A DNA stretch of 33,406 bases, taken from Baffinella frigidus (lineage: Eukaryota > Cryptophyceae > Cryptomonadales > Baffinellaceae). The notes under the pieces are model-generated. The model had not been told where the DNA came from and made no database searches. It saw nothing but the letters and a program-made list of their open reading frames with translations. Positions within the stretch are counted from its first letter, which is position 1. Every line of letters starts with the position of its first letter. Shown piece after piece: positions 113 through 33,406 of the stretch. The stretch spans positions 313,554 to 346,959 of the forward strand of contig MU646746.1 of assembly GCA_026770585.1 (NCBI GenBank), written 5' to 3'. The translations under genes were made by a program, and so were the position numbers.

Positions 113-1459
113 TTAAGGGTTAGGCACCGCGCCGCACAGCGCGCCGTAGTGAACTTTCGCTTCCTGCCCCTGGTTGAGGGTTTGGGGTTTGAGGGTTGTT
201 GTGTAGGGTTTGGGGTTTGAGGGCTGGGGTTCGGTTTCAGAGGGTTTAGGAGTTAGGGTTTGGGGTTGAGGGTTCAGGGTTTCGGGTTTCGGGTTTCGGG
301 TTTCGGGGTTCGGGGTTCGGGGTTCGGGTCCAGGCTTGAGGGGTTGGGATTCAGGATTCAGGGTTTAGGGTTAAGGGTGTACCTCCTCCCACCCGCGGAG
401 CTCGCCCGAGGCAGCGAGAAGGATGAGGGTTTCAGGTTGAGGGTTCAGGGTTTCGGGTCTCGGGCGTGGGGTTGAGGGTTCAGGGTTTAGGGTGTAGGGT
501 TTTGAGGTGTACCTCGCCCCCGCGCAGCGCGCCCGCGGCCGCGAAGAGGGATGTTGGGATTGAGACGCTGGAGGCTGCGAGGACCCCCTGGAGCTCCGAC
601 ACCGTGAGCATGCCCTTCCCCGCGGAGGAAGCGGCTTCGGCGGCCTCGCACGCGGCAAGGAGCTTGGCGTGTGCCTGGGTTAGTGTTTAGGGATAAGTGT
701 TGAGTGTTGAGTGTTGAGTGTTTAGTGTTTAGTGTTTAGTGTTTAGTGTTTATTGTTTAGTGTTTAGTGTTTAGTGTTTAGTGTTTAGTGTTTAGTGTTT
801 AGTGTTGAGGGTGTATGGGCTAGGGTTAAGAGTTTAGGTTTTAGGTTTTGGGTTTTAGGGTTCAGTGTTTAGTGTCGAGGGATGAGGGTGTAGGGGCGTG
901 TGCCTTGACGATTTGTAGTGCGGAGTCGCGCTCATGTCCTGAGCGGAAGACCCGCTCCGTGTCTACCGCAACGTTATCGCCAGAAACCGCCCCCGCAACG
1001 CCGAAAGGGAGGTGTTTGATCGTAGAGAGCATCGTCGTCTCGTCCTTTGTCAGCAGCTGCACGCGCGCTGCGAACGAAACGTAGTCCACCTGATAACAAA
1101 CGGATGCGATCAGTTAACTAGTTCTAGCTCTGCCTGACTCGGGTTGACTGATCGTTTTCACTAAAAAAGTTGAACGAGACATAGTCCACCCACGCACAAG
1201 CGGACGCGACCAGATACCGTGCGGCGGGTCGGTCCGTCCTAAGGGGGGGGGTCTCCTAGGGGAGCCCGGTCCGTGAGCCTCCACGTATAATGTTGGATCA
1301 TTCAACTGAAGGCTCTGCACGCGCGCTGCGATCGAGACGTTGTCCACCTGAGAACAAGAGGTTCGAACACGCGGTCGCAACTTACAAACAACCGTGTAAA
1401 ACCGCGGGAAAGAGGGGGGTGGTCCTGGAGTGACCCCCGAAAGTGCACAGCGACCACTA

Positions 1460-1526
<67 letters not shown>

Positions 1527-1661
1527 TTCTGAATCCAGCCCTCCCTGCCGGTGGGCTAGTGTGCGCACCCGACGTGCTGCGGTGTCAGGTGGACCGCAAG
1601 GTTTCGCAGGGCTGTTCGTACGTCCCCCAAACCCTTAACACTAAACCCCAAATCCTCAACC

Positions 1662-1701
<40 letters not shown>

Positions 1702-1950
1702 CTCTCCCCCTCTAGCCCTCGCTGCCAGCGTGCACACGCACCTGGTCATTTCCCACCCCGCTCCTCCCCGGGAACATCCCGACAAGCAATGCGACGATAG
1801 ACTGCACGTCAAATCGACAGCGGACCAATCCATTCTGGGTGTCTAACCAGTACTAACCCGCGGACGGACCCCGTCCGCTTTGTACCAGGAACAATAGAAA
1901 GACCGGTCGATTTGAGGAGCAGGCTATCGTCACGTGGCTAGCCCTCCCTG

Positions 1951-3289: not shown

Positions 3290-5393
3290 TCTCTCTCTCA
3301 CACACACACGGATGGGCGTAGCCAGCTGCTCACTGCTCAGTTGAGATCAGCAGCGAGCGTTCGAGGTACAACTGTGTCGAGCTGCCACCAGAACTCAAAG
3401 CGTACTGTTGGAACCATCCACCCAGCCCGCTAAGCGTAAACCTTGCTACACAATGCAGGGAGATGCGCGTAGGTAGGGGGGTGATCGCAGGCAGATAGGT
3501 AGACAAGTGGGTAGGTAGGTAGATTGGTAGGTAGGTTGGTAGGTAGGTAGGTAGGTAGGTAGGAAGGTAGGTAGGTAGGTAGGTAGGTAGATAGGTAGGT
3601 AGGTAGATAGGTAGGTAGGTACGTACCTCCCAGTCGGTCTGGCCACGACAGGAAGGGTGCCATATCCTCTAGCCGGTTTTATAGGAATATAATCCCTTTA
3701 GTTGGAGCCATTTATACGACCTTTGGCCTGTAGTAAAGATCTCAAGATTTCATCGCAGCTCGATTTTTTTTAGCAGATTCTGGAGCTGAAGGCCAAATCT
3801 CGAGGATCTGCGCTTTCAGATTTCAAAAGGATGAAATTTAGGGGTGAAATTCAGCAGAATACCGGTAACCTCCATTTATGACTTACGAAATGAAACCGGC
3901 TAGAGGATAGTTTGACGGGTGTGGGGCAGGGTAGGGTAGACAGGGTTCAGTGTGTGTTGGGCGCTTGCGCTTTCGGGTTCGTGGTTTCGGGGTTTAGGAG
4001 TTCCGGGTTTAGGGGTTTAGGAGTTTAGGAGTTCCGGGTTTAGGTGTTTAGGAGTTTAGGAGTTCCGGGTTTAGGGGGTTCGGACCTCCCAGTCGGTTTG
4101 GTCGCGGCACTGGATATCCACGGCCTGCGTCGGGGGAAAGCGAGGTTCAACAAATAGTCAAACACTTTTAGTCAAACACGACCGCTGGTAACTTCAAACT
4201 GACAGGTGCATTCGTGAAATAGTCAAACACGACCGCTGTGCGTCAGAGGGAGACGCATCACGGTCAGACGGGAAAAGTCCCCGAGGGTTAGACATACATC
4301 CTCACTCATGGCTTTCCCATTCGTCCCCAAAAAGGCCATGCGCGCGTCTTGAAACTCTAGCTCTGCCTCAAGGTAGGACGAGACCTGTGGCCAATTTCAC
4401 CAAGGGATAGACCCTTAGGGTATATCGCCCAGGGGAAATCATTTTTTGAGATCGCTCGATTTGGTTCACTTCCTGTGGCTGGTGGGCAATAGCCATCCAT
4501 TGATTTCGACCTGTTCCCAAAAGTTGATTGTGTACCAAGATTGGGACTTCAGCTGACACAGACACCCCAGATCTGGGGTGTCTGCAAGGTGATTCTGAGG
4601 TCCGAAAATCGGCGATTTGGCCTTTCCGTGAGGGTTGGTGGAGGTGGGATGGAACCGTGTTCGGCCCGTACGTATCATCATACTTGATCCACTCCACCGT
4701 GCTCCCGTGCGAGAGGTGCGCGTCGTTCACCCTCTCCAGGAACTGCGCCCACGTGTCGGAGGGGGACACTGCCACGTGCCCCACCATGTCGTCGCCCATG
4801 AAGAGCGTCAGGGAATAGTCAGTTGACGCGGCTGCGGCGGGCTTGGCTGCGGAGGGGGCGGCGACGATCTCCACCTCGATTTCGCCCTTGATCTCCGCGG
4901 CGTCTTCCTTCATCATGTCGATCAGGTCCTCCCATTCCTCCTGCGACACCAGGACACCAGCAGCGCTCAGCACTGCAATTATCTGCGGGCCGCGCTAGAC
5001 GGAGAACGCAGCGGAGAGAACACCGGCACACGCGTGCGAATGGCCGGGCACTAGATACACGTGCAGGATCAACGTTGGCAGGTTCTGGTGCGGCAACATC
5101 CGGACTGATGGCGGGGCTTGTACCTTGGACTTGCACCGAATGTCCTGCTCCTTGTGCGGCCCGAAATCGTCGTCGTAGTTGACACTAACAATCTCGAACC
5201 CCACCTTGGCCTGCACCGCAGCCTTGAACCCCGCCCAGTCGATACTGGTCGCCACCGTCACTGCCCCCGCCGGGTTGTCCTGGTGGAAGAGCTCGAACTT
5301 GTACGTCTCCCCCCCCGCAGCAGGCTTCTTGGCGACGCCCCCAGCCTCCGCCTCGATCTCATCGATCAGGTCCTCCTCCTCGACACCCGCCAT
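113..5393 (-). CDS. PB1-domain / EF-hand-like protein, 8-exon model
   Basis: Eight exons, all phase 0, join to 490 codons: 5393-5124, 4940-4656, 4124-4086, 3091-2756, 2177-2040, 1089-904, 674-513 and 169-113 (stop TAA 115-113). The first three exons and the start of the fourth hold two tandem PB1-like units. Each has a YxxxLF first strand, an acidic OPCA-like stretch (NYDDDFGP, KYDDTYGP), then W-E-D with MMKEDAxEIKG and a last strand ExEI. The join DWE|DMLMMMKED reproduces EWEDLIDMMKED of unit one, which supports the splicing. Exon 4 ends in a long Ala/Pro/Lys linker. Later exons resemble two EF-hand pairs (DAGASGRVSAGAL; NDQ|VDYVSF; GKGMLTVSEL; AKVHYGALC) but lack most calcium ligands. PB1 domains mediate protein pairing; the partner is unknown. 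The start is the ATG at 5393; an upstream exon is possible. The last exon runs into telomere-like repeat before its stop, so the C-terminus is uncertain. Confidence 0.68.
383..426 (-). repeat. Broken copy of PB1/EF-hand exon 674-513 (3' end)
   Basis: On the minus strand this reads LLAASGELRGWE followed by a gtacac donor. It matches LFAAAGALRGGE|gtacac at the end of the real exon. It lies in the following intron. Confidence 0.7.
670..885. repeat. TGTTTAG/TGTTGAG tandem repeat in intron
   Basis: A run of about fifteen copies of AGTGTTT or AGTGTTG units follows the 3' splice site of the PB1/EF-hand exon 674-513 (it precedes that exon in the minus-strand transcript). It is related to, but distinct from, the TTTAGGG class. 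Confidence 0.8.
1124..1163. mobile_element. Element B end fragment
   Basis: CTAGCTCTGCCTGACTCGGG followed by TTGACTGATCGTTTTCAC matches the right arm of the 24259-24367 copy in reverse orientation. A second end fragment lies at 4357-4370 in the same gene. Confidence 0.6.
1172..1347 (-). repeat. Two broken copies of PB1/EF-hand exon 1089-904 (5' end)
   Basis: At 1347-1305, cag|GTGGACAACGTC gives VDNVSIAARVQSL, matching VDYVSFAARVQLL of the real exon and keeping the acceptor. At 1189-1172 a shorter piece reads VDYVSFN and is followed by element-B sequence. Confidence 0.7.
1463..1530. repeat. CT microsatellites in PB1/EF-hand gene introns
   Basis: CT runs at 1463-1530, 1663-1698, 1953-2012 and 2660-2720. 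On the transcript strand they are GA and begin about 30-60 bases after exon donors or after the donor of a broken exon copy. Confidence 0.9.
1742..1798 (-). repeat. Broken copy of PB1/EF-hand exon 2177-2040 (3' end)
   Basis: The minus strand reads LLVGMFPGRSGVGNDQ and keeps the CAG|gtgcgt donor, like LVGMYPGRSGVGNDQ of the real exon. Both copies are followed by the same GA-rich microsatellite. Confidence 0.75.
3195..3310. repeat. CT/CA compound microsatellite
   Basis: Alternating CT and CA blocks with a poly-C run, in the intron just before the exon 3091-2756 of the PB1/EF-hand gene. Confidence 0.9.
3480..3630. repeat. GTAG tetranucleotide microsatellite
   Basis: About 30 GTAG units with interruptions. 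On the minus strand it continues directly from the gtacgtacct donor of the broken exon copy at 3627, as if grown from the splice-site sequence. Confidence 0.9.
3627..3661 (-). repeat. Broken copy of the 39-base PB1 exon 4124-4086
   Basis: The minus strand ends CAGACCGACTGGGAG|gtacgt (QTDWE), matching the real exon. The donor leads straight into the ACCT tetranucleotide microsatellite. Confidence 0.65.
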
Positions 5394-10127: not shown

Positions 10128-11280
10128 TTACAGGCCGAGCTGAGCCACGGCGAAAAGCGCCGAGAAGGCGAGGCTGATGGTTCCCAGCACCCCCGCCGGC
10201 ATGATCTGCCACCGACAGGGGAATGCGGTGTGAGTTTGTTGGTGGTGTGAACAGCAGACTCAGCCAAATGATCGTGTCCAATTTCGATGATAATCGTTTC
10301 TAGCACCCCCGCTGGCATGATCTGCACCAGGGACATTCGGGTGTGCGGTTGGTGTGCCAGAAGTGTGAGGACCGGGTCCTGGACGGGCCCGCCTCGGGGG
10401 GAAATGGGTCTAAGGTCGGGCCATTAGATCGCCTAAAATTGGGGTAAGGCCTATTTTATTCCTCGCTCTGGAATGAAGGCATCACAGAATGGAAGCAGTG
10501 CCATGGTTCCACAAGATGGTACCATTGCGTACCAGCAACTCCTTTCACACAGGGCTGCGTTGGCGGGTGTAGTTTAAAGGGTGACGAACTAACTGCAGGG
10601 TAGTTAAGCCTACGGTGTTGACAACAGTACGATTAGGCCGTAGGGCACCTGTGCACGAGAAACCCGGGCCTAGCTAGGGCCCCCACGGCCTACCGTGGTC
10701 AATACCGTTGGCTTAATCCCCTTGAATTAAGGCCGTTGCCCTTTTCAAGTGCATGAAAAAAAACGCTCGGGGGGGGGCTTGTTCGTCTTGACAAAGCGGA
10801 TGGCGAATACCTAGCTCTGCCTCAGTTAATCTGGTCTCTTCATTTTGAACGTTTCCACTCCAAAAGTTGACGAATTTGTACCACACAACAGGGAAATCGA
10901 CTTTCGGTCTCCTCAAATGAAGAGACCAGAATAACTGGGGCAGAGCTAGAATACGCAAGCTTGTGGGGTGCACGTTTTTGGGAGGCAACCAAAATAGGCC
11001 TGCACCTTGTGTGTGGTTGGGTGTCCCTCGCGCCCCTTCAGGAATCAAGTACAGGGGTACCTCGCTCATAAGACCCCCCCCCCCCCTAAGACCCTACAGT
11101 AGGGCCCTATGGTGGTCCTAGGGGGGTTGGCGCTTTCTTATGAGCGAGGTACCCATGTAGCAGTGCATGCGAAAAGTGCCTGCTGCACCGCGCGTCTTTA
11201 CGGCCAGACGCCGCATTGGTGTCCCTTGGGGCCTAGAGAGGGAGATAGAGAGCGATGGAGAGCGAGCGACAGCGAGTGAG

Positions 11281-17456: not shown

Positions 17457-18184
17457 GGTATCAGCGAGGGAGGCAGGGTGGTGTCGGGTTTGACTGAGAT
17501 CTGGACCACTCCGGGCGGTTCCTCATCACGCCCACCCTCGCTTCCGATCCTTCGCTTCTGGTCTACGACCTCTGGGCACAGGCACGCCCCTTTCTTGCGG
17601 CCTCTCTCCGTCTCGCCCTCTCTCACACACACACCCTCTCGCTCTCTCCCTCTCTCTATCGCTCGCTCGCCCTCTGTCCCGGTCTCGGCGCGCGGGGGGG
17701 CAGGGTGTTGTCGGGGTTGAATGCGATGCACGATATGATACGCGGACGGATCGGAGCCGGAGTAACCCCGGTAGCACGAACCCTAAACCTCAAACCCCAA
17801 ACCCCAACCCCTAAACCCAGGTGTGTGAGGCCGGAGCGGAGCCAGTGGCGCGGGTACCGTGTAGATGGTAGGGGTTCCATCTGTATTCATGTGTAACCGT
17901 GGGTGTTTTCGCAAAACTCCCACGGGTACATATCAGCACGCCAAAATCCGGCGTGTGGTCTGCATGTGCGTGGCGTGTTGGCGAGTTACCCCGGCAGCAC
18001 GAAATCCCCAAACCCTAAAACCTGAACCCTGAAGCAGGTGGGTGAGGCAGGAGCGGAGCCGGTGGCGCGGGTACCGTGCCCCGCACTGGCCAACGGCGTC
18101 CAGGTACTCGCGCGCGCTCTCTCTCTCGCTCTCTCTCTCTCCATCCCTCTCTCTCTCACTCTCTCTCAGACACACACACACACA

Positions 18185-19967: not shown

Positions 19968-20177
19968 GCTTACAGGGCAACCTCTGCGCACATGATGCAT
20001 GATCCGTCATCCCCCATCCGTCCTTGGTCCCTCCATGGTCCCTCCCTACGGCAGGCCTAGCAAGGCTCTGGCAAGCACGGCGTGACTGTGGCGTGACTGT
20101 AGCGTGACTGTAGCACAGGGCAACCTCTGCCTGCATCATGCATCTGTCCCTCGCCAGTGATCGCCAGCGAGAGAGAA

Positions 20178-20300
20178 TACAGGGGTACCTCGCTCATAAG
20201 AAACCACTCCCTCCTAGAAACCTACAATAGGCCCATGCCTAGGGCCCTATGGAGGTCCTTGGGGGGGGCGGCGGTGTCTTATGGGCAAGGTACCCCCGTA
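20178..20300. mobile_element. Element A, diverged full copy
   Basis: The left end is intact. The right end is mutated (CTTATGGGCAAGGTACCCCC), and TA flanks are present. Confidence 0.8.
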
Positions 20301-20490: not shown

Positions 20491-22482
20491 TCACGTGTTG
20501 GTGAAGTTCATGTCTCCGCTGCGAACGGACAAAAATCGTCAGTTTAGAGGGGGAGGGGGAGGGAGGGAGAGAGGGAGCGAGAGAGGGAGGGAGGGTGGGA
20601 GGGAGAGAGAGAGGGAAATAGGGAGAGAGGGAGATGGAGAGGGACGACAATCGTCAAGTGCAATTGATGGTTCGGTTCGCGTCATTGCCCAATCCTCTCC
20701 GTTTCAGGTTGAGCATCGTTTTCGGGGTGCAGGGTGTAGGGTGCAGAGTGTAGGGTGTAGGGTGTAGGGTGTAGGGTGTAGGGTGTAGGGTGTAGGATGT
20801 AGGGTGTGGGATGTAGAGAGCACTTGGCGCGGCTGAAGACGTACTCGAGGCGCGTCGACGGCCAGGGATATCCGCCCGAGGAAAACGTGGGACCGATCAA
20901 GAGTCGCCGGGNNNNNNNNNNCTCGGGCGGGGCGGGGCGGGTGCATATTTTTTGGTGTGAGGTTTAAGGTCACGACTGGGATAGTTTAAGGTGACGGCTT
21001 GAATGGTTAAGGGTTTCGGGTTTCGGGTGTCGGGTTTCGGGAGTACTTGGCGCGGTTGAAGACGTACTCGAGGCCGTCGACGAGCATGCACCCGTGCTTG
21101 AGATGCGCCTTCCACTTCGCCTTGGCGCGCGTCACCTGCAAGAACCCAAAACAGTCAGTTTCGCAGACGTGACCTCTGCTGATGACGGACGTGATCACGC
21201 CAACGCCACTTCGCCTTGGCGCACGTCACCTGTGCACAGAAACACCGTCAGTGTCAAGGACGCAGGTGTTGACTGCGGGACGCGAGCGTTAGGGATGGCA
21301 TCACCCAGTCTTGACGACATCGCCTGCACTCCAACATGGTGAGTTTCTTTCACAGACGCGATCACTCCAACAGTCAGTTTCGCGGACGTCAACACGCCAA
21401 CGCGGTCAGTTTCAGGGAGGGGAGAGGCGTTGATGACAACACCTGCACTCCCAACACGGTGAGATTCAAGGACGCGGGCGGTGTCGATGATGGACGCGCG
21501 CACGGGGGGGTGCTAGCGCGCGCCGGCGTCACCGCAGGGAGGCACGCCAGGCACGCCAGGCCCAAACACTCAACCTGTGAAAACTCACCCGAGACTCACC
21601 CCAGACGTGCATCTACCAGGAGCAAACGTTTGCTTACCCTCCCAGCAGTCAAGCACGTGATCTCGTGCCGAGCCGCCGAGCAGTCAAGCCGGGCGGGAAG
21701 GGAGCAACTCGGCAGTGTCAAAGATTTTCACCTGACACCGAGGCCAGATCCTTGGCCTCGAACTTTTAAAATGTGCCGAGTTCGCTCGGGAGCGGGGTTC
21801 AGGGTTTAGGGTTTAGGATTGAGGACCTTGTCGTACTGGCAGACGATGAGGTTCTCGGTCTCAGGCTCGTGCTCCTCCTCATCATCGTCTGACCCCAACT
21901 CCTCGTCGTCCAAGTCATCGTCGTCCCCTGCCCCTGTCGGTTGGTTTGCTGAGGTTTAAAGTTAGGAAACAAGGCCTCATTTCGGAAAACCTAACAATAA
22001 ACCATGGAGAGTTCCTCCTCCTCCTCTTCGCCCGAACCCAGTCATCGTCGTCCCCTGCTCCTGCAGGGAGCGCATCGTAGGGTTAGGAACCCTCAACCCT
22101 GCCTCTGAGAGGGGGAACCAATCAGAGCGAGCATGTAACCCGCCGCCTGCATAGAGCCGAAAAGAATGTACGAAAAGAATCTCTATAAACAAGCGTGCTC
22201 ATCGTCGTCTGACCCCAGCTCCTCGTCGTCCAGATCGTCGTCGTCCCCTGCACCTGCGTAGGGTTCAGGAATTAGAGTTAGGGTGGCCAGTGTGAGGACC
22301 GTGGCATGTATGTCTATTTCTCTCTCTCGGCAATGAACTAGGGAGATTTCCTCCTCCTCGTCGTGCGACCCCAACTCCTCATCGTCCAGATCGTCGTCGT
22401 CCCCTGCCCCTGTCCAACCAGGGAGAGCATCTTAAGGTTTAGGAACCCTGTACCCTGAACCCGCAATCCTCAACTCTCAACC

Positions 22483-22524
<42 letters not shown>

Positions 22525-25500
22525 AGGTCACACGCCCGCAGAGAGCCCATGCTCCATCTACAACTCAACCATCCCTGTCAGGGATGGTTGAGATCGGTGT
22601 TGCATCCCCTGCCTGAATGCTCGAGGCAGTGCGCACCAGGCACACAACTTGCTCAACGGCAACCGCAAAAGCAAATTACCCCCCCCCTTGGATCGACCGC
22701 TACAACACAACGTTTGCCCAGGGTCTCTCACCGTCCGCATCCCCGCCCGCACCCCCGTCGTGCCCCCCATCCCCATCCGTTTTCTCGTCATGCTCATCCG
22801 GACCATGTCAAAGAAAAGAGAGCTACACCAACGTTCGCGGAACATTGCTGCGACACAACGCTCGGGACAAGGTAACGCACCGTCCGCGCCCCCGCCCTCA
22901 CCCCCGTCGTGCCCCCCATCCCCATCCGTTTTCCGGCGCTTGTTCCCGCCCCCGGCCCCGCCCCCGGCTCCGTCCAGCTGCGAAATCCCGCCGCACACCA
23001 CCCCGCCCGCCGCCCCAGCGCCGTCCGCGATTTGCTCCGCTTCCGCCGAGGATGGCAGCTCAAGGCTCTCGAGGGTCGAGATCCTGGAGCACACGATTCC
23101 GCCCGCGGAGGAAGAGGATGGGAGTTCGAGGGTGAGCTCGACCTCCTCGCCCCGCCGGGGCTTGCGCCCGCCGAACAACCCGTTCCCTGCGAGGCGGGTG
23201 GGAGATTGAGACAGAGAGATATCGGTGTAAGTACCAACACGGCCGCGGTGTGTTCTCGCGGAACCCACGCACCGCCTGGCGGTCCGCCCACGCAACTGAT
23301 TTACTTTTTTGTGGAAAAATATTTGAAATGAAGGTGACCGCGTGGGGTTGCAGAGTATTCTACCGACTAGGGCACCCTTCAGCATGGCATATCAACACGC
23401 AGCATTCAGTGTGCAGGTATGGGGTTCAGGATTCAGGGTTCAGGGTTTGGGATTTGGGGGTTGGGATTGGGGTGCAGGAATCAGGGTTCAGGGTTCAGGG
23501 TTCAGGGCTCAGGGTTCAGGGTTCAGGGTTCATAGTTTGGAGTTTATTGTTGAGGGTGTATTAAGGGTTTATTGAGGTTTTTTTGAGAATTAATTGAGGG
23601 CGTATTGAAAGTTCATTGAGGGTTTATTGAGGGTTTATTTGGACCTAGCGGCGCCTCCTCGGTGCAGTCGCTGGGCCCGTCGGTCTGCGGCACCCCCGTC
23701 TGTGTTGAGGGGTTGGGGTTTAGGGTTTGGGGTTTGGGGTTTGGGGTTTGGGGTTCAAGGTTTAGGGTTTAGGGTTTAGGGTTTAGGGTGCAGGGTGTGG
23801 GGTTTAGAGTTTCAGGTGTGGGGTGTGGGGTTTGGGGTTTGGGGTTTGGGGTTTGGGGTTTGGGGTGTGGGGTTTGGGGTTGTTTGAGGGTTGAGGGTTG
23901 AGGGTTTAGGGTTGCCCCGTCGGGTCTGCGGGACCCGGGTCTGTGCAACGCCACCGCAGTGATGCTTGGCGCATATCTCCTTGGAAGCTAGGCACCCGAA
24001 CTCCACGTCCAAGTTCGAACCTCACTTGGTTTCCGAAACATGTTTCACGACGCGTGACGAATGAATCTCCTACGTTTCGGAGCTAGGTATCCGAAACATG
24101 TTTCACGTCGCCTGGCGAATGAAACTCCTATCGCCACCGTCGCGAACCAAATCGCCGCGCGCATCCCCGCCAAGACGGTTACAGCATGGCCCACAGCGCG
24201 GGTGTTCGAAACCCCCACAGATCATTTCCACAGGAGCTGGATCCGGGAATGTGACCTCCTAGCTCTGCCTCACACGGTTTGGACTCGCCAATCCCCCGGG
24301 GTTTTGGTGCAAATCTGTCAACTTTTGGAGTGAAAACGATCAGTCGACCCGACTCAGGCAGAGCTAGACCTCCGCCTTGATTCGGATCAGCGGCATGGCC
24401 ACACCGCCCCCCGCGAATCTCGGGGGCGCCCCCCCCCGCCTGCCCTTCAATAGCCCTATTTTAACGACGAGCCAGAGTAAAAGTCAGGCGGCGCTAGAAT
24501 GAGACCTCCGTCTTGACGCGGATCTGCGGCATGGCCACGCCGCCCCCTGCGAAGCTCGGCGGCGCCCCGCCCGCCGGCATGCCCGCCTCGCTCTTCACCT
24601 GCCGCGCGCTGCTGTTGCGGGGGGGGGGGGCGCGGTCAGCTGGGTCGGCCGGGACGTGGATACGGAGTGTCCACCGAAGGTCAACTGCTGCGGGTTGAAC
24701 GCATCACATCGCGCGGTGCTGCTGCGTGGGGGGGAGACGCGTTCAGGGCCGCCAGCACATCACATGTGCAAACCAAACTGCTGTCGGTTTGGACGGGAAA
24801 CACCGTCGCGAATATTGTGAGCAGGGGACAGGCAGGCGCTGAAGGGATCTGCAGGCTACGATGTGAACCACCAAACCCAGCAAGGCGTCCGCATCTTCCA
24901 CGGTGGGAGGGGGCGCTACCTGGAACCTGCTACTGCCCCGAAGTCAACACTCCCGCGGCCACCCTGCGCACAAAGCCTCAGGTCAGTACGCTAGTATGCC
25001 ACCATGCCAGCACCAACGACAGGACAGGACAGGATCGGATGCGTGTGCGAAGCGCACGTGTATGTGGCAGACCCTGCAGATGGGGAGCTCACCGCAGCGG
25101 ACCCACGGCCTTGGGCGCCATGATTACAGCAGCCGGACTCGCGCAGCTTGCTCAGCCACAGCTGCGGAAGGGTGGGCGAGACGTTAGAACTGTGACAACA
25201 ACTGCGGGCGGATCTGTCCATCGTGGAATATGGGAAGGATGGGTATTGCTTCAGCGCCACGCAGATCCCCTGGAGGGATCGCTCGACCCTCATACTTATC
25301 TCAAGTTTGATGCGACCTCTGATCCACCGCTTCCCCGACAAGGCACGCGCAGCAGCACTGGGGCTGGGTCATGGGGTGCACCGTCCTCAGCTCGTTCAGA
25401 ACGTTGGTGTCCAGACCCTGCCGACACGCTCAAAGTCAGCCCAGCCACCCGCCGGCCACCTCGGCCTCGCCGCCGCGCTCCGGTGAGCTCACCACCAAAG

Positions 25501-25879: not shown

Positions 25880-28800
25880 ATGAAAAGGGCTGGCTCCTCC
25901 GGAAAAAAATGTGGGGGAGAACATGATGGTGCTTCCATTTGCTCGGCACGCGGCGCCTTGGCAGCGCCACAGCCGCTTCCAGAAGGCGCCATGCATGTAA
26001 ATGCGTTTCATCGGTAGCACTGACATCACAGGGTGGCTTCGCAGAGGTTGCCGAGCCCGCGACAGAGGAGGAAACGCTGGTGCTGAGCAAGCTGGAGGAG
26101 ATGGCGCTGGAGGAGCTGATGCGGATGCTCGAACACAAGGCGAGCACCCACACCATTGTTTGAACATGACTCCAGGATCGGCGATCGTTCATCGATGCCC
26201 AAACCTGCGATCGTTCATCGATTGCTAGGCATAACGCGGTCCTGGGTTCGGGTTGAGGTGTGTCAAACCAACACAAACGTCTCCCCGAGCACTCAAAGTA
26301 TTTTCTGAACACGACGCCAGGATCTGGACCCAATCCTGCGAGCGTTTATGGGTAGCTAGGAATAACGCGCCCTGGGTTAGCTCGAACACAAGGCGAATAC
26401 TCAATCCCTACCGTGCAGAAGACGCCATACTCCCACCAGCCACCAGAAGTGAACCAACTCGAAGAATGACAAAAGTAGATTTCCCCTGCAGGCTCAACCC
26501 TAAGGGTTTAGTCCTCTGCTTTTTTTTTGGTTCACTTCTGGTGGCTGGTGGTCTGGGCCCACACCAGTGTTGATGGGTTGCTAGGAATAACGCGGTCCTG
26601 GGTTCGGGTTGAGGTGTGCTTTGTCAAACCGACACAAACTTCTCCCCGAGCACTCAGACCATTCTTTGAACCAGACGTCATGATATGGGCACAAGCCTAC
26701 GAGCGTTCATGGGTTGCACGGAATCGCACAAGGCCCTGGGTTAGCTCGAGCACAAGGCGAGCAAGCAAACCATTATGTGAATAAGACGCCAGGATCTGGA
26801 CCCAAGCCTTCGAGCGTTTATTGGTTGTTTATTGGTTGCAAGCAATAACGTGCCCTTGGTAAGCTCAAACACAAGGCGAGCACTATGGCGTCTTCTGCTC
26901 ATGAATACTCTGGTCCCACACTTGCGAGTGATCATGGATTGCTAGGAATAACGCGGTCCTGGGTTCGGGTTGAGGTGTCAAACCAACACAAACTTCTCCC
27001 CGCGGGAAACTCTGGGGAGTGTCAACCCCCCAGCGACTGACCCTACCGGCACTCGCACACAGTCGGCGATCGTGCGCTCGGGGGCGATGGCCGTGGTGGC
27101 GGGGCTGTCGGTGACGACGCAGGGCCGGATGGCAATCATCGCGCAGGAGCCTGACATCATCCCGATCCTCGTGGAGAAGGTACCACGCCAGATTCCTTGA
27201 AAGGGGCCGCCAAATGTCAATTCACCGGTAGGAATAGGGGGAATTCGTTGCCTTCGGGGATGGTTGGGCGCCCGAAGTCACTTTAGCCAGATCGGGCTAA
27301 GATAAGACAGTCGTTTCCCTCGAGCCCTCTGGCGTGGTGGCGGGGCCGTCGGCGATGACGCAGGGGAGGATGGCAATCATCGCGCAGGAGCCTGAAATCA
27401 TCCCTATCCTCGGGGAGAAGGTCTAGCTCTGCCTCAGTTTTATTCTGCCTCGTCCTAAAGGCTGAAAGTGCGTGCAACGAGTCGGAGGCGCTGCACGCTA
27501 TCCATCATTTCGCGAGGCGTGAACGCGTCAAGTGAGTAGGAACTTTCCATCACGGTTCAGGGTTCAGGGGTCAGGGAACAGGGTTCAGGGGTTAGGGGTT
27601 ACGGTGTAGGGTTTAGGCTGAGGCGACCCTAACCCGAAAATGGGAGGGTCGCGTACTTTCTAGATCTGCTGAGTTTCTTTCTGGCTCGTTCTGACACGTA
27701 TTTAAGAACAAAAAGTTTTATGCTGCCTCGTCTTAAAGGCTTTATATTCGCCCTTTTGTACTGGCGTTATGTTCTTAAATACGTGTCAGAACGAGCCAGA
27801 AAGAAACTCAGCAGATCTAGAAAGTACGTGACCCTCCCATTTTCGGGTAAGGGTCGCCTCAGCCTAAACCCTACACCGTAAACCCTAACCCCTGAACCCT
27901 GTTCCCTGACCCCTGAACCCTGAACCGTGATGGCAAGTTCCTACCACGCAAGATTGTAGGGCTGACCTGGGAAAACAAGCCAGTTCACACGGAATGTGTA
28001 ACAACTTTCCGAATTTTCGATTTTTCTGTGGGAAGAATGTCCACTTATGAACTTAAGAAATAGTAGAATTCTACTATTTCTCCTGTGGGTCACTCTGCCC
28101 TACACTCTTGCGTGGTACGCACTTGACGCGTTCACGCCTCGCGAAATGATGGATAGCTTGCAGCGCCACCGACTCGTTGCACGCACTTTCTGTGTCTCGG
28201 TTCTGTTTCTCAAGGTCTCTGTTGCTCACTTCTTTTTCTTACAGTCCACCCTGGAGGGGACTTGCGGCCAATCCCGAATAACCCTTTATCGTAAAAGTTG
28301 ACATGATTTATACCACTAAAATACATATTAGACCTTTTTGTACTAGATCCGTTCATCACGGGGGCGCCACATTGTGGCGCCATCTCCAAGGGGAGTTGAC
28401 TTAAGAATGCTCAAAATATCATAATGTTCCATCCAGGGTGGCTCTGTTTCTCACATCTAGCATATGACATCTCGCAGATTGGCGGGCCGAGCATTGCAGT
28501 GGAACTGGCGGCCTCGATCCTTCCACGCCTCGTGAAATGAAGGATGGCGTGAATCTTTGCACCGAACCCAGTCTCTGCGTTTCACATGATGCTGATGTTG
28601 GTGTTTCGGGGGTCACAGATCGGCGGGCAGAGCATTGCGGTGGAGGCGGCGGCGTCGATGGCGCTTGTCAACCTTGCAGAGGTAATCCCCGCGCCACATT
28701 CTTGGAAGGGGACGCCAATACCCCGGAAGGAATAAGTGGATTTTTTTGGCTTTTCGGAAAGAGACGAACCCCCGCGAGCAATCTGGCGTGGCTTCTCCCA

Positions 28801-31800
28801 CACCTCAAGCCTCTCGCTCGTGATCGTCATTGAATTTTGCCTGTGTCTCGTGATCCTGACGCCCAATCATGCCAAACCATTCAACATCCCCCCTCGTCTC
28901 TACCACCGCCTATCGTCCTCAACAAGCATTTCGGGTGGAGCATGCTGGGAAACTAGCGTCCGTAAAAACGTTCTAGCTCTGCCTGAGGATTATTCTGGCT
29001 CGTCCTGAAGGCTTTCTATTCGCCCTTGTGTGCTGGATTTCTGCTCTTAAAAACTTCCAAGGACGATCCATAAAAAAACTCAGGCAGGCAGAGCTTGACG
29101 GTGCGGGTGGTGTACGCTGAAAAACGGGCTTCCACCCGCAGGATGAGGCAGCAGCGAAGCGCGTGGTGAAAGCGGGGGCGGGGCAGAAAGCCATGGAACG
29201 GATCCTGACGTGCGGGGCGGACCAAGGCTCGGTGCGGGAGACGGCTGCGAAGCTGCTGGTGAACGTGTCGCGGATCGCAGAGGGGAGGCGGGCGCTGGCG
29301 GGGTATGTGGCGGATGGGAGCGCGGAGATCCAGCGCAAGCTTCTGGTCTAATTCCCAGATCTTTCCTTGTGGCCGGGTCTGACCGGACTCGCAGATCTCC
29401 CTTTCGATCTGGACTTGCGGATCTCCCTTTCCCCACCGGGTCCGATCCGGACTCTCTCTTTGATGTGCGGAGATCTAGCGCAAGCTGCTGGTCTAACCCC
29501 GAAACCCGAAACCGTAAAGACTAAATTGGGAGCTGAGATGATTTTATGTCGAGGTTGAGGCGGCTAGTCTGGTTCCTTAACCGCAAGAAGTAAGTTGGGA
29601 GCTGAGATGACTCGGTGGTGGGGTGTGTGGCGGATGGGAGTGCGGAGATCCAGCGCAAGCTCCTGGTCTCACTCCCAGATCTTTCCTTGTGACCGGATCC
29701 GACCGGACTCGATCTGGGCTCGCAGATCTCCCTTTCCCCACCACGCCAGGTCATAAGTTCCTGTTTCACACACAGTTGGTCGCGCTCAAAGTGTTGAGAT
29801 GGCTTATCGTGGTAATTTTTTTTTTAATCCGGACGTGTTCCGCAGGGCAAGAGCTCCAATTCCCATAACTTTTGGCGTGTTTCCCGGGTAGAATCAACTT
29901 TACTCGAAAAAAATATCAGTTTACTACACGATCTTGAAAATTCAACTTGAGACCTGGCGCGGCCGGGTCCGATCTGGACTCTCTCTTTGATGTGCGATTG
30001 CACATCAAAGAGTGAGATTGTCTGGATTGTCTCCTTCTAGAAGGCCTCGATCTTCTCACATTCCTGGAGACCTTGACCAGACACCGTTTTTCTAAGGTTT
30101 TACGGTTTTCAGGGGTCAGTGTTTGAGGTTTAGGGTTCAAATCCCAAACACCCGGGGCGAGGATGGCACTGAAGGGTTGGCCCTCGATCGTTCAGCCCTA
30201 AACCCCTATCCCCCTGGATCAGACGCTGCTGGTTACAGAGTACGAGAACTCGCGGAGAATCGGGGGAGATCACCTGGCGAGCCTTGCCTTCTTCTTCGAG
30301 AATATGGCTCAGGAGGTCCGTTTCTCCCACCAACTCAACCCTAAACCCTGAACCGTGAACCCAAAACCCGAAACCCGAAAACCCTGTCCCAGAACGCAAC
30401 ACGCAGGACTCCTGCACACTACGGTCCTCCTGTATTCCGAGAAGGCGAATCTCCATGATGCGTGTGTCTGTATAATTTCGGGGTTTTGATGATTATGGGA
30501 CAACAGGTGACGGGGGCGCTGGTGCTGTGCAACGAGGAGGACTTCTTGCTCGGACGCATTGTCAAGGACCTCGCTGGTACCTACACCCTGCCCCCTACAC
30601 ACTGCACCCTACACCCTACACCCTACACCCTACACCCTACACCCTACACCATACACCCTACACCATACACCCTACACCATACACCCGGACCTAAAAACTA
30701 TGAAGTATACACCCCGGACCCTAAACCCTAAACACTTAACCCTAGACCCTCATCCCCAAACCCAAACCCCCAATCCCAAACCCCCAAACCCGAAACCCGA
30801 AACCAGAAACCAGAAACCCGAAACCAACAACCCGAAACCAGGGAACAATGGGGATCGGAAGCTGGGCGCGGCGGGGACGATGAAGAACTGCTGCTTCCAC
30901 CAGGAGCTCCACTCCGCCATGGCATCCCACAGGTCCCCCCCCCATTCCGTCCCCGCTAGGATTCACGCGGGAATCGTGGTATGTAGTTGTACCTTTCAGG
31001 ATTGCTGCTTCCACCAGGAGCTCCACTCCGCCATAGCCTTGCACCGGTCTCTACCGCGATGTCCCTCCGCTTGCATTCTTCTTCTTCGTTGTTACTCTCA
31101 TGCCTGGATATAAGTGGCCCAAACGCCAATGATCCGTAAGACGGGGCTGATTATTTCATTCGCGCGTGACTCGTTTCAAGTGGCTGCAGCATTCACGCTG
31201 GGCCCTGTGGCAAATCGGGTGTTTGGAACCTGTGTTGGAACGGGGGGGGGATGGAACCGGAGCGTCCATTTTGCCTGGAAATGCAGGCGGAGCTTGGGAT
31301 GTCCGATGAATACCTCACCCTAGAGTCCTGCGCGGCGGTCAACCGCAGTGTCAGTTCGGAAGCAGAAGCGTGATGCAGCCAAGCACCTTTGATCGGGAAA
31401 CTCCAGTCCTAGGACCTGCAGTGCTCAATGCCGCAAAGTAGCACAGAATAACCTGCGATGAATAGCTCTGAAAACAAATGCGATGCAGGGACCTGGCGGT
31501 ACTACTCTGCCTGAACCTGGTCGGGACAAGCGACGAGTTCCTAGGACCTGCAGTCCTCAATACTGCAAAATAGCTCTGAATAACCTGCGATCGATTGGCT
31601 CTCAACATCGAATAATGCAGGGACCTGGCGGCACTACTATGCCTGAACTTGGTCGGGATCAACGAGGGATTCGACGACGAATAGCTCTGCATAACCTCAA
31701 ATAGCTCTGAATCCATGAACCTCGAATAGCTCTGAACATCCAATAATGCAGGGACTTGGCGGCACTACTCTGCCTGAACCTGGTCGGGACAAGCGATGAG

Positions 31801-31874
31801 TTCGACGATGAAGACCGGGAGGGCATGTTTGCGGGCCTCGCCACCAAGTGCCGAATGGGCGGCAAGGTCCACCT

Positions 31875-31916
<42 letters not shown>

Positions 31917-33406
31917 CTATGTGGGCCCACCAATTTTATGAGCCCGGGCTCTTTTCCGCTCCAAAGTTGACGGATTTGTACTGCACACCCAGCATGACAA
32001 CTTGAGAATTCGACGAGGAGGACCGCGAGGGCATGTTTGCAGGCCTTGCTACCAAGAGCAGAATTGGCGGTAAGATTGAAATCTTTCCACTTGGTACCAA
32101 CTAATAGTGTCACGTGCCTCTCGAAAGTCTCTTAACTTTGTGGGTTGTCAGAATGGGCGGCAAGGTCAGCCTCTGCCTCACTCGGGTTGTCTGTCAGACT
32201 ATTCGCAAGTTGACATGCTGTGTGTGCGGTACAAATCCGTCAACTTTAGAGCAGGAAAGAGCCCGGGCCCACCAAATTTGTGAGCACAAATAGACCGAGA
32301 CAGAAGATCCGCGCCATTCCGCCTCTGGGCTGAGAAAAACGTTGCTTTCTGATAAAGGTTTCGCTTGCTCCTGGCAGCTCCGAACCGTGTGAGAATGTGC
32401 ATGTGGCTACTGAAACCCCCAAATTATTACGTAATACATACGTAATAAATAAATGAATAAACGTACGTTTCTCTCAGGTAACCGAGTCAGCGGAGCTGCG
32501 CAAAACGATCTACGAGGCCTCGCGGATGCTCACTCTCACTCTTTTTGTAAAACGCGGCGCGCCTGTACAGAAACGTTCACACCCTACCCTCCAACTCTAA
32601 TCCCCTGGGCAGGTGACTGAGTCAGCAGAGCTGCGCAAAACGATCTACGAGGCCCTGCGGATGCTCACGCGTTCCCGCATCGGACGGGAGTATCTCCGCC
32701 AGGAGAAAATCTACCCGGTACAATACCCCCACACACAGCGGACTTTGAAGGGATTTCCTGAATACCCCACACGTGAAAAATCCACAGGCCCTACGGTAGG
32801 CAATACCGTAGGGGCATAGGAGGGTTCGTACGGATAAGCTAACGGAACTTTGAAACTATCTACGAGGCCCTGCGGATGGTGTCCCGCTCCCGCATCGCAC
32901 GCGATTATCTCCGCCAGGAGAAAATCTACCCGGTATCCTCCGACCCATAATCCTACACCCTAGCCTCCCCGTAAAACCCAAACCCTACTCGGTGCCTGCC
33001 CAACCCCCCTAAACTCCTCCCCTCAACCCTAAACGAGAGAACTTCATTTTGGGTGGGGGCTGCGGGCGAATCTGAGGTACAGTGTGGAACCACCGCGCGT
33101 TGGGTACGGGAGTTGCAATTGAGGGAGTTGACTTTCTTGAAAGTGTTCAGCGTTGAGATGTTGGGGTTTGGGGTGTAGGGTTTAGGTTTTCGGTTTAGGT
33201 GTGCCAGCGGAAGCAGCTGGAACGCGCTTCCAAACTCCTCTCGAGAGAAGTCTCCAAACTCTAAACCCTAAAACGGTTGCGGCAGGTGCTGCGAGAGGTG
33301 CACAAGTTTGAGGAGTCGTTCGAGGTGCCCGACGAGGACCTCATCGAACTCCTCGAACTGGTCCTGCCCCCCTCCTTCTCTCTCGCTCCCTCCCTCCCTC
33401 CCTCCC
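25880..33406 (+). CDS. HGH1: HGH1-family armadillo-like protein (3' end beyond window)
   Basis: Exons join in phase: 25880-25996 (tentative), 26032-26139, 27063-27179, 28619-28681, 29142-29345, 30223-30315, 30507-30576, 30842-30932, 31752-31866, 32613-32717, then 33286 onward. The first ten give 361 codons. HGH1 signatures: AVVAGLSVTTQGR, AASMALVNLAE, RETAAKLLVNVSRIAEGRRA, DHLASLAFFFENMAQE, LGAAGTMKNCCF, DLAALLCLNLVGTSDEFDDED, TIYEALRMLTRSRIGREYLR and IYP|VLREVHKFEE. In yeast Hgh1 is a chaperone adaptor for translation elongation factor eEF2; the role here is inferred by homology. Exon 1 is weak: its intron would be only 35 bases. Intron 26140-27062 would start with GC. Exon 11 may end at a GTCCTG donor near 33348 or run on. 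Confidence 0.9.
26140..27000 (+). repeat. Tandem units echoing the HGH1 exon 2 donor
   Basis: The motif GCTCGAACACAAGGCGA at the end of exon 2 recurs at about 26380, 26743 and 26863. The accompanying phrases AGGAATAACGCGGTCCTGGG and GGTTGAGGTGTG recur at about 26230, 26345, 26585 and 26945. The intron looks built from diverged repeats of the exon-2/intron junction. Confidence 0.75.
27325..27420 (+). repeat. Broken copy of HGH1 exon 3
   Basis: It reads ARRMAIIAQEPEIIPILGEK-like sequence from a block closely matching exon 3 and ends GAGAAG|gtctagctctgcc, so the donor is followed directly by an element-B end. Confidence 0.82.
27463..28190. repeat. Large near-perfect palindrome in HGH1 intron
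   Basis: The left arm 27463-27705 is matched in reverse by 27770-27944 and 28116-28190. The arms include the telomere-like stretch, ACTTTCTAGATCTGCTGAGT and GAACGCGTCAAGTGA. Element C interrupts the right arm. The outermost part recurs diverged at about 28520-28600. Confidence 0.85.
27944..28115. mobile_element. Element C (CCACGCAAGA inverted ends), 172 bp, nested
   Basis: Ends CCACGCAAGA…TCTTGCGTGG flanked by TA, inserted into the right arm of the large palindrome, whose two halves rejoin when it is removed. It carries GGGAAAACAAGCCAGTTCAC and a perfect 26-base palindrome at 28056-28081 (arm AGAAATAGTAGAA). Confidence 0.83.
28478..28520 (+). repeat. Broken copy of HGH1 exon 4 (5' part)
   Basis: cgcag|ATTGGCGGGCCGAGCATTG reads IGGPSIAVELAAS, against IGGQSIAVEAAAS of exon 4. 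The acceptor is kept. Confidence 0.8.
28973..29096. mobile_element. Element B-like copy, 124 bp
   Basis: Starts CTAGCTCTGCCTGAGG and ends AGGCAGGCAGAGCTT. The interior (GGCTCGTCCTGAAGGCTTTC) resembles the centre of the palindrome at 27463-28190, linking the two. Confidence 0.65.
29465..29664 (+). repeat. Two broken copies of HGH1 exon 5 (3' end)
   Basis: At 29465-29490 and 29617-29664 the DNA repeats GCGGAGATCCAGCGCAAGCT…CTG|gtct. Both keep the CTG|GTCT donor of the real exon end at 29345, and following intron sequence (CCCAGATCTTTCCTTGTG) is repeated too. Confidence 0.8.
30999..31050 (+). repeat. Broken copy of HGH1 exon 8 (3' part)
   Basis: tttcag|GATTGCTGCTTCC gives NCCFHQELHSAIALHR-like sequence, against NCCFHQELHSAMASHR. 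An acceptor-like CAG precedes it. Confidence 0.78.
31488..31683 (+). repeat. Two broken copies of HGH1 exon 9 (5' part)
   Basis: At 31488-31541 (DLAVLLCLNLVGTSDEF) and about 31622-31683 (DLAALLCLNLVGINEGFDDE then a stop). Each is preceded by ATGCAG and matches exon 9 (31752-31866). Confidence 0.82.
31878..31914. repeat. CT microsatellite after HGH1 exon 9
   Basis: About 18 CT units starting about 12 bases after the exon 9 donor. Confidence 0.9.
31915..32007. mobile_element. Element B fragment in HGH1 intron
   Basis: Contains the family core CCGCTCCAAAGTTGACGGAT and flanking GGGCCCACCAATTTTATGAG, but the CTAGCTCTGCC ends are missing. Its right edge abuts the broken exon-9 copy at 32008. A related fragment lies at about 16795-16926, ending AGACAGCGCTAG. 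Confidence 0.6.
32008..32072 (+). repeat. Broken copy of HGH1 exon 9 (3' part)
   Basis: It reads FDEEDREGMFAGLATKSRIG followed by a GGTAAG donor-like site. A further scrap at 32152-32164 (RMGGK|gtcagc) is followed directly by an element-B end. Confidence 0.8.
32167..32307. mobile_element. Element B copy after an exon-9 scrap
   Basis: Starts at CAGCCTCTGCCTCACTCGGG, directly after GGCAAG|gt, and ends near GACCGAGACAGAAG. The core has GTACAAATCCGTCAACTTTA in the opposite orientation to the 31915 copy. Confidence 0.65.
32478..32535 (+). repeat. Broken copies of HGH1 exon 10
   Basis: The 5' copy (32478-32535) reads VTESAELRKTIYEASRMLT with its acceptor. Another copy at 32854-32932 reads TIYEALRMVSRSRIARDYLR then QEKIYP with a CCG|gtatcc donor. 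The complete exon (32613-32717) lies between them. Confidence 0.85.
32784..32817. repeat. Short hairpin CCCTACGGTA
   Basis: Arms CCCTACGGTA and TACCGTAGGG surround GGCAA. Related sequence (CGGCCTACCGTGGTCAATACC) is at 10686-10707, and GTAGTT-ACGCCTACGGTGTTGAC-type blocks are at 10601 and 18339, indicating another small dispersed family. Confidence 0.55.

Follow-up and report, generated by a model that had tools for sequence, protein, structure and literature searches.

Partial exon copies lie beside their source exons in the introns of a Baffinella frigidus locus and probably derive from local duplication at exon edges

Introduction

How introns lengthen and where decoy splice sites come from has elsewhere mostly been inferred from old, blurred sequence. 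Several kinds of local duplication that bear on both questions have been described. In vertebrates, repair-mediated duplications capture proximal DNA and leave closely linked copies that measure at most a few hundred bp. Some of these include parts of exons together with intron splice sites, and the copies are attributed to the repair of breaks, with filler or microhomology where the breaks lay (PMC2671141). In the potato RdRp gene the duplicated unit spans an intron-exon boundary and the splicing signals are inherited (PMC4974935). The direct repeats found in the introns of Daphnia neointrons have been read as repeated repair of staggered breaks giving longer introns (PMC4202315). Furthermore, adjacent nicks on opposite strands can produce overhang breaks that end as direct repeats of the overhang (PMC5730883, citing Vaughn and Bennetzen 2014). 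For these four sources the comparison holds for the portions of text covered. A different route is represented by the introners, which are introns derived from DNA transposons (PMC9860276); a word search of the main text of that paper did not find cryptophytes, Guillardia or Baffinella named there.

The locus described here, from the cryptophyte Baffinella frigidus, resembles each of these systems in part. It differs from the human data, in which partial exon/intron donors account for 4 of 824 cases (Table 2 of PMC2671141), by 27 exon-end copies in about 21 kb of intron, all on the same strand and in the adjacent intron. In potato the duplication was the site of a new intron, whereas in Baffinella the copy lies within an existing intron and many exons are hit. 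The repeats shared with exons in Daphnia measure 4-12 bp, compared with 15-88 nt of exon, in some cases with flank, in the present copies. The nick data are from mouse stem cells, and a splice-junction bias is absent from the text covered. A resemblance to introners is seen in the Baffinella MITEs, which have inverted ends and short target duplications and of which two stand right after AG|GT, but the exon copies themselves are gene-specific and local and are therefore not introners. The kind of event is known already, while its density and its junction bias look new.

Sequence, gene models and alignments

The window, i.e. the whole stretch of DNA analysed, comprises 33,406 nucleotides of contig MU646746.1 (assembly GCA_026770585.1) with a single assembly gap of 10 N at 20912-20921. 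Three of its six genes have spliced models that match annotated proteins of B. frigidus exactly (D 457/457, E 307/307, F 368/382, the remainder of F lying outside the window); five of the exons (F exon 2; E exons 4, 5, 9 and 10) were fitted to these proteins, so that the agreement is not independent there. The models of genes A and C are unsupported by annotated proteins. Gene B, a coiled-coil gene, is firm for exon 1 only and partly masked as repeat. No related locus was found among the genome contigs or viral contigs searched.

Forty-two exons of five genes were aligned with 38 introns. A copy was catalogued at a score of at least 30 against the adjacent intron, and a score of at least 34 was required for the comparisons between exon/intron pairs.

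The catalogue of exon copies

The catalogue contains 30 copies (A 3, C 2, D 8, E 7, F 10), derived from 19 of the 42 exons and hosted by 17 introns including the open-ended stretch 1-512. They are given below together with two matches outside the catalogue.

386..425, minus strand: gene A exon 7 (513-674), 3' end copy, downstream in sense; score 38; flank similarity through telomere-like repeat
1315..1347, minus strand: gene A exon 6 (904-1089), 5' end copy, AG kept; score 51
1742..1788, minus strand: gene A exon 5 (2040-2177), 3' end copy, GT kept; score 79; inverted-repeat arms 1785-1939 touch its inner edge
3627..3661, minus strand: gene A exon 3 (4086-4124), 3' end copy, GT kept; score 28, below the cut-off
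10285..10321, minus strand: gene C exon 4 (10128-10205), 5' end copy, AG kept; score 39
10778..10810, minus strand: gene C exon 3 (11433-11513), 3' end copy, GT lost; score 56; adjoins MITE 10811-10949
16015..16048, plus strand: gene D exon 6 (16365-16412), 5' end copy, AG kept; score 41
16104..16118, plus strand: gene D exon 6, internal piece of 15 nt; score 30
16176..16214, plus strand: gene D exon 6, 5' end copy, AG kept; score 63
16498..16519, plus strand: gene D exon 7 (16717-16779), 5' end copy, AG kept; score 39
17057..17098, plus strand: gene D exon 8 (17206-17319), 5' end copy, AG kept; score 59
17498..17581, plus strand: gene D exon 8, 3' end copy, GC donor kept; score 113
17821..17861, plus strand: gene D exon 9 (18038-18103), 5' end copy, AG kept; score 67
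18375..18409, plus strand: gene D exon 9, copy of inner and 3' part, 7 nt short of the end; score 45
20824..20860, minus strand: gene E exon 9 (21047-21135), 3' end copy, GT kept; score 60
21206..21229, minus strand: gene E exon 9, 5' end copy, AG kept; score 43
22037..22058, minus strand: gene E exon 8 (21827-21933), 5' end copy, AG kept; score 39
22198..22251, minus strand: gene E exon 8, 5' end copy, AG kept; score 83
22349..22409, minus strand: gene E exon 8, 5' end copy, AG kept; score 82
22732..22784, minus strand: gene E exon 7 (22881-23186), 3' end copy, GT kept; score 91
24370..24436, minus strand: gene E exon 5 (24506-24611), 3' end copy, GT kept; score 89; MITE 24259-24367 at its GAG|GT
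26380..26399, plus strand: gene F exon 2 (26045-26139), short 3' end copy, part of a tandem array with further ones at 26744-26763 and 26863-26882; outside the catalogue of 30
27333..27420, plus strand: gene F exon 3 (27063-27179), 3' end copy, GT kept; score 136; MITE end right after, at 27423
28478..28518, plus strand: gene F exon 4 (28619-28681), 5' end copy, AG kept; score 47
29467..29490, plus strand: gene F exon 5 (29142-29345), 3' end copy, GT kept, in-frame stop; score 38
29613..29665, plus strand: gene F exon 5, 3' end copy, GT kept; score 81; similarity extends about 77 nt into the next intron
31003..31037, plus strand: gene F exon 8 (30842-30932), 3' part copy; score 65; gapped alignment continues across the GT
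31489..31540, plus strand: gene F exon 9 (31752-31866), 5' end copy, AG kept; score 89; unit of the ~132-bp tandem array
31621..31681, plus strand: gene F exon 9, 5' end copy, AG kept; score 72; second unit of the same array
32006..32074, plus strand: gene F exon 9, 3' end copy, GT lost; score 83; dispersed-repeat match 31929-32009 stops at its inner edge
32478..32533, plus strand: gene F exon 10 (32613-32717), 5' end copy, AG kept; score 87
32853..32932, plus strand: gene F exon 10, 3' end copy, GT kept; score 115

Each of the 30 copies is partial, lies clear of all exons and stops short of at least one exon end. Their alignments contain three gap positions in total. Broken exon copies in introns beside their source had been reported in a preliminary description of this DNA. 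Of the 13 places named there, 12 are catalogued copies, and the last, 3627-3661, falls under the cut-off yet matches an exon end by eye; the places were right, with coordinates off by a few bases. More than twenty copies had been mentioned there; to the named places the catalogue adds, for instance, 17498-17581, 20824-20860, 22732-22784, 32006-32074 and 32853-32932. It had also been stated that five genes are affected and that no copy was seen in the coiled-coil gene. This agrees with copies in five of the six genes (A, C, D, E and F), and self-alignments of the whole window show, for the exons of gene B, no local copy on the same strand, as far as its one firm exon and its masked parts allow. 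The wording "nearly every multi-exon gene" needs qualification: it refers to five of six genes in a single window. In gene A, the 5' end of exon 6 has a weaker third copy at 1172-1216 in the window self-alignment.

Locality and strand

The distance between copy and source ranges from 70 to 623 nt with a median of 152 nt, well inside the limit of 5 kb between donor and copy that is used for repair-mediated local duplication. On the same strand, 24 of 75 adjacent exon/intron pairs contain a copy, compared with 0 of 75 on the reverse strand. Among non-adjacent pairs there was none on the same strand and one on the reverse strand (0/1,521 and 1/1,521); for non-adjacent introns within the same gene the values are 0/276 and 1/276, and between genes 0/1,245 on each strand. 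These counts support the earlier proposal of a recurrent duplicating process, which would act here strictly locally and on the same strand. Tandem units can continue into the intron, as in gene F (29293-29437 and 29613-29742), and three successive diverged units form the ~132-bp array at 31407-31812. An origin as introners was rejected on the between-gene counts. Processed retrocopies, which would carry neighbouring exons spliced together, were rejected as well, since every copy derives from a single exon, in some cases with adjoining intron.

Exon edges and splice sites

Twenty-seven of the 30 copies reach one exon end to within 3 nt, where random placement would give 6.0; in 200,000 draws a count of 27 was never reached. 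Copies of exon starts always lie upstream of their source and are always preceded by AG (15/15 each). Copies of exon ends always lie downstream (12/12), and their next two bases are GT in eight, GC in one and neither in three. This is the pattern of exon end plus AG or GT first noticed in the preliminary description. Its term "live" for the splice sites holds only as far as the intact dinucleotides go; in D, E and F the annotated gene models take up the intact exon only and none of the copies, and most of the substitution evidence, with one contrary result, points to dead copies. One of the three end copies without GT or GC, 386-425, looks like an alignment slip.

Tandem duplication followed by selection explains the position of AG copies upstream and GT copies downstream, and also much of the junction bias, because duplications inside an exon break the protein. 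We regard the copies, with fair though not firm confidence, as fossils of recurrent local same-strand duplications that arose from break repair near exon edges and then decayed neutrally. A staggered break, or locally templated repair, would presumably have been filled in on both sides, and some 20-200 bp spanning an exon-intron junction would have been doubled, sometimes with filler in between (simple repeats, telomere-like repeats, pieces of MITEs). Where the junction was included, one exon copy would remain whole and the other would lie inside the intron and be spliced out, and the event would survive; a duplication wholly inside an exon would break the protein and be lost. The copy would later decay, leaving an intron lengthened by copy and filler.

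A uniform process plus selection predicts, in the detection test, roughly three times as many intron-only events as junction events (2.99 with a hand-entered list of unit lengths in which one value had been altered, 3.05 with the unaltered list). Only 18 same-strand intron-only hits at most 700 nt apart inside one intron were found, compared with the 24 exon/intron pairs with a copy (p 0.0016 to 1.4e-9, according to the number counted, 7, 10 or 18, and the masking correction). In one identical self-alignment 30 exon-touching hits stand against the 18 intron-only hits (p 0.00005). The expectation of 0.338 was obtained by correcting 0.25 by hand to allow for masking and detectability, about a quarter of the intron sequence being masked in the intron-only count, and five to seven of the 18 hits were judged by eye to be independent. 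With intron-only duplications fewer than predicted, uniform repair and selection are not the whole story, and an extra bias to exon edges beyond selection is likely, perhaps from breaks that are commoner in or beside exons. The earlier idea of junction duplication is thus upheld as an enrichment at exon ends that probably exceeds selection alone, although much of the bias follows from selection.

The same deficit is what would be seen if transcription or splicing aimed breaks or template switches at the boundaries, e.g. through R-loops at the exon/intron composition step, so that before any selection the junctions would be duplicated much more frequently than the interiors of introns or exons. 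The anchored extension of similarity, which stops 0-6 nt into the intron in 11 of the 27 junction copies, also points this way. However, many intronic flanks no longer align (with repeats masked, only 5 of 25 compared flank pairs still align at a score of at least 12), so that intron-only events may be under-counted, as they may through masking, and the hits are not all independent and come from one window. Such targeting is considered an unlikely, but not a negligible, alternative. Some short-flank cases, but not all, are explained by a junction MITE or by indels in minisatellites (F exon 3, D exon 7). The 11 copies were not kept as a separate class with exact splice-site break points, since some have related flanks past gaps or a MITE at the junction. 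A genome-wide junction bias, if it exists, would connect splicing or transcription with breakage of the DNA, and would help in understanding why genes in such algae are hard to annotate.

Filler and MITEs

Twelve of the 30 spacers between exon and copy include 20 or more masked bases of simple or telomere-like repeat. Some spacers contain MITE or hairpin sequence. A MITE family with CTAGCTCTGCCTCA ends recurs in these introns; it stands directly after AG|GT at two places, 24367 (in sense) and 27423, and at a third, 32167, with mismatches. Ends of elements or repeats touch inner copy edges at 1785-1788, 10810 and 32006-32009. The MITE-end sequence had no match in the viral contigs searched. Insertion or excision of such introner-like elements at or near AG|GT might have duplicated tens of bases of exon edge, and both the junction positions and the contacts with copy edges would suit this. 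Yet the clear target duplications are just 5 bp long (GAGGT at 24259-24367, AATAC at 10811-10949) and exon copies occur in the adjacent intron only, which makes a MITE origin improbable.

Divergence and decay

Copies and exons differ at 143 of 1,378 aligned bases (10.4%), with 0 to 19% per copy. Self-alignment and divergence per copy were the check foreseen in the preliminary description, which had called the copies diverged. Such graded divergence beside 19 exons could make rate, break points and splice-site decay directly measurable.

The differences comprise 84 synonymous and 59 replacement changes. For genes D, E and F, 47 replacement differences could be considered, of which 18 fall on the copy side, 7 on the exon side and 22 are uninformative (18 vs 7, p 0.04). 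Over all sites the third-position share (85/143) lies above 0.459, the share taken by assumption for the case that the copy is neutral and its exon evolves synonymously (p 0.0014), and this excess vanishes only with the CpG split: non-CpG differences fall on the three codon positions as 24/17/37, i.e. 37 of 78 at the third (p 0.82). Differences between copies number 11/11/21 over 108/106/104 positions, from pairs that are not independent. Coding constraint on the copies, suggested by the 84 vs 59 ratio, was dropped, since the copy-copy differences, the copy-side excess and the CpG split fit neutral decay better; the all-site excess remains. Judged from these substitutions, neutral decay of the copies is supported but not settled.

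An assembly artefact, with diverged haplotypes or misjoined reads set side by side, would also yield local same-strand tandem copies with few indels. The height of the divergence and its wide variation between copies, the replacement changes mainly on the copy side, the copy with a stop, the successive diverged units at 31407-31812 and the single short gap in the window make this improbable. Least credible is a regulatory role in splicing, with the copies acting as alternative or mutually exclusive parts of exons: it would fit the AG of all start copies, the GT or GC of nine of the 12 end copies and the synonymous excess, but every copy is partial and lacks one or both exon ends, the three annotated models skip them all, replacement changes are mainly copy-side and kept dinucleotides are expected from descent.

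Intron length and intron gain

The stretches from exon to copy make up 5,536 of 20,688 intron bases. The 16 copy-bearing introns have a median length of 732 nt, compared with 307 nt in the 21 others (p 0.0005), which supports the link to intron growth drawn in the preliminary description. Local duplication by break repair may thus be one possible route for introns to grow and gather false splice sites. A more far-reaching idea, to which we attach a low probability, is that junction-directed duplication is the main source of intron growth: breaks linked to splicing or transcription would repeatedly duplicate the edge with its signal and insert filler such as telomere-like DNA and MITEs, introns would be layers of failed junctions, and filler inside an exon would give new introns.

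Intron gain by tandem duplication of AGGT, which would place a copy of the following exon's start at the 5' end of the intron and a copy of the preceding exon's end at its 3' end, was rejected as a general route. The copies lie beside their own source exon, and boundary repeats at the splice sites of 37 introns are not above shuffled pairing (mean 3.2 vs 3.0, p 0.07). One clear exception, with repeats across both splice sites, is the intron at 675-903.

Genes of the window

Six genes, A to F, lie in the window:

Gene A, from 5393 past 513, minus strand: clean frame over 7 exons
Gene B: coiled-coil gene, first exon modelled
Gene C, 13110-10128, minus strand: Tmemb_14 protein (Pfam match)
Gene D, 13423-18838, plus strand: 10 exons; translation of 457 residues identical to an annotated WD40 protein of the cryptophyte Baffinella frigidus
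Gene E, 25629-20491, minus strand: 10 exons; annotated TFIIA alpha/beta subunit
Gene F, from 25773, plus strand: 11 exons in the window; DUF383 and DUF384 domains

The model of gene A is based on its reading frame and that of gene C on frame and Pfam match; neither gene A nor the first exon of gene B gave a Pfam match above cut-off. Among the relatives listed for gene D, many carry the name telomerase Cajal body protein 1. The built part of gene F (368 of 368 residues) matches an annotated Baffinella protein of 382 residues, and its two domains are those of HGH1. The final model of gene E agrees with the annotated protein in 307 of 307 residues; one small exon, the longer start of one exon and the last exon were placed in the DNA after the annotated record had been seen.

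Exon copies in neighbouring introns

For genes A, C, D, E and F, 42 exons were aligned with each of 38 introns on both strands, the sample being one window of one assembly. At a score of at least 34, same-strand copies (partial second versions of an exon) are present in 11 of 37 pairs of exon and upstream intron and in 13 of 38 pairs of exon and downstream intron. At this score the reverse strand of adjacent introns gave 0 of 75. Within a gene, pairs with introns that do not adjoin the exon gave 0 of 276 on the same strand and 1 of 276 on the reverse strand, and pairs between different genes 0 of 1,245 per strand. Because the matches concentrate in adjacent same-strand introns and are nearly absent from these controls, the copies are real and strictly local.

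A score of at least 30 gives 30 copies from 19 source exons in 17 introns, including 12 of the 13 places named in the preliminary description; the 13th (3627-3661) lies just below the cut-off. That the copies cover an exon end and mostly keep AG or GT was described correctly: 27 of 30 reach one exon end, with 6.0 expected for random placement along the exon. Copies of exon starts lie upstream (15/15) and all 15 keep the AG; copies of exon ends lie downstream (12/12), of which eight carry GT, one GC like the donor of its source exon, and three neither (GT or GC in 9/12). The distance from copy to source is 70-623 nt (median 152). Five exons (D 8, D 9, E 9, F 9 and F 10) are flanked on both sides, by a start copy upstream and an end copy downstream, although the end piece of D exon 9 falls 7 nt short of the exon end.

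Some copies are parts of tandem units extending into the intron (29293-29437 and 29613-29742; a three-unit array at 31407-31812), and some retain little past the splice dinucleotide. Of 27 anchored alignments extended beyond the junction, 11 end within 6 nt and 16 continue for 14-104 nt; simple repeats make up part of the longer extensions. Gapped alignment finds a related flank in at least one of the 11 short cases (D exon 7), and with simple repeats masked 5 of 25 compared flank pairs align at a score of at least 12. Spacers contain at least 20 masked bases in 12 of 30 cases, and hairpins or MITE pieces in some. Intron 2 of gene F contains a degenerate array (26127-27002) in which end copies of exon 2 recur with its GC donor.

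Probable decay of the copies

The splice sites of the copies had been called live. Their dinucleotides are indeed mostly intact, but in the annotated models of D, E and F no copy is used, only the intact exon. Exons and copies differ at 32/26/85 of 459/460/459 sites by codon position, with 84 synonymous versus 59 replacement differences, which at first sight suggests constraint. When the replacements in D, E and F are polarised with relatives, 18 fall on the copy side and 7 on the exon side, with 22 uninformative. Leaving out CpG sites gives 24/17/37 by codon position, near the expectation assumed in the analysis for a neutral copy next to an exon that evolves synonymously (p 0.82), and copies differ from each other at 11/11/21. 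These three results speak for decay; over all sites the third-position excess is still significant (p 0.0014), so doubt remains.

Probable break repair and intron length

The data directly show that the copies are local and on the strand of their source, that start copies lie upstream and end copies downstream, that most dinucleotides are retained, and that the annotated models lack the copies. The sequence form of the copies and known precedents suggest that they probably arose by local same-strand duplication in break repair; neutral decay would have followed. If a staggered break formed close to an exon edge, or repair there used a local template, the edge would be duplicated, sometimes with filler captured as well. 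In mouse stem cells tandem duplications arise from breaks with overhangs (PMC5730883), repeats of Daphnia neointrons are read as products of repeated staggered-break repair (PMC4202315), a tandem duplication crosses an intron-exon boundary in a potato gene (PMC4974935), and telomeric repeats can insert at breaks in mammals (PMC2246262). Human repair-mediated duplications also include splice sites, but partial exon/intron donors are rare among those reported (4/824; PMC2671141). A review lists seven proposed mechanisms of intron gain (PMC3443670). Unlike the introners surveyed in PMC9860276, the exon copies are not multi-gene families. No paper on Baffinella introns was found by title in the open-licence literature searched by organism name, and among the matches listed by further searches no title concerned junction-biased duplications in cryptophytes.

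Growth of introns by duplication had also been proposed. Introns with copies are longer (median 732 nt, n=16, versus 307 nt, n=21; p 0.0005), but this is an association only, since longer introns give copies more room. Measured from each exon to its most distant copy, the spans add up to 5,536 of 20,688 intron bases; at most, roughly a quarter of the intron length in the window could be due to the process.

Bias toward exon edges

A tandem duplication within an exon would break the protein; one spanning a junction would leave one exon whole and the other piece buried in the intron. Duplication plus selection would thus place copies at exon ends and on the observed sides. For units averaging ~80 nt, 75 junction sides and 21.2 kb of intron, the null of uniform duplication plus selection predicts about three intron-only events per junction-spanning event; of simulated intron-only pairs of equal age lying in stretches not mostly masked, 87-97% would be detected. 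The masked self-alignment gave, within one intron and up to 700 nt apart, 18 intron-only same-strand matches versus 7 inverted ones, most of the 18 being, as judged by eye, by-products of exon copies or of a single array; at the same distance limit 30 same-strand matches touch an exon. The junction excess has p 0.0016 to 1.4e-9 for 24 exon/intron pairs versus 18 to 7 intron-only events, their independence partly judged by eye, and p 0.00005 by the single method (30 versus 18). A real additional bias toward exon edges is therefore likely. It would fit a duplicator targeted at junctions, which we consider improbable; intron turnover, masking and non-independent matches could be behind part of the excess.

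Repeats and mobile elements in the introns

Telomere-like words are present in introns of all six genes (e.g. 1-512, 8512-8820, 8880-9073, 12104-12460, 14713-14987, 23702-23920); the label telomere-like is our assumption, and the organism's own telomere repeat may differ. By an ad hoc word list, with approximate introns for gene B, C-rich (CCCTAA-like) words on the sense strand number 414 versus 49 G-rich ones and prevail in 6 of 6 genes, three per strand; single introns (1090-2039, 26140-27062) show the reverse. Intron 675-903 consists largely of telomere-like sequence, its donor is GC, and a direct repeat of 9 bp, GCACACGCC, lies across its two splice sites, a match that no shuffled donor-acceptor pair equals. 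It resembles an insertion that became an intron. A weaker case is intron 15361-15590 with GTCCT at both splice sites (P 0.019, within chance for 37 introns).

Two families with characteristic ends are present:

10811-10949, 11766-11903, 24259-24367, 28973-29097: MITE family with CTAGCTCTGCCTCA ends
1124, 4357, 16926, 27423, 32167: single CTAGCTCTGCCTCA ends of this family
11054-11155, 12627-12645, 19326-20296: second family, GGGGTACCTCGCTCATAAG inverted ends, clustered between genes D and E

The MITE family has exact 5-bp target duplications at two copies (AATAC and GAGGT). It begins right after AG|GT at 24367 (sense) and 27423 and may therefore be introner-like. A 20-nt direct repeat (11741-11760 and 11904-11923), exceeding the 5-bp duplications elsewhere, brackets the MITE at 11766-11903. 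In gene F, the starts of intron 3 (27183-27254) and intron 4 (28689-28752) resemble each other weakly (71% over 72 columns, E 0.08), possibly by intron-to-intron copying or by chance. Intron 3 also contains a long inverted repeat (27536-27944) with 178-nt arms, 97% complementary, and a 53-nt spacer.
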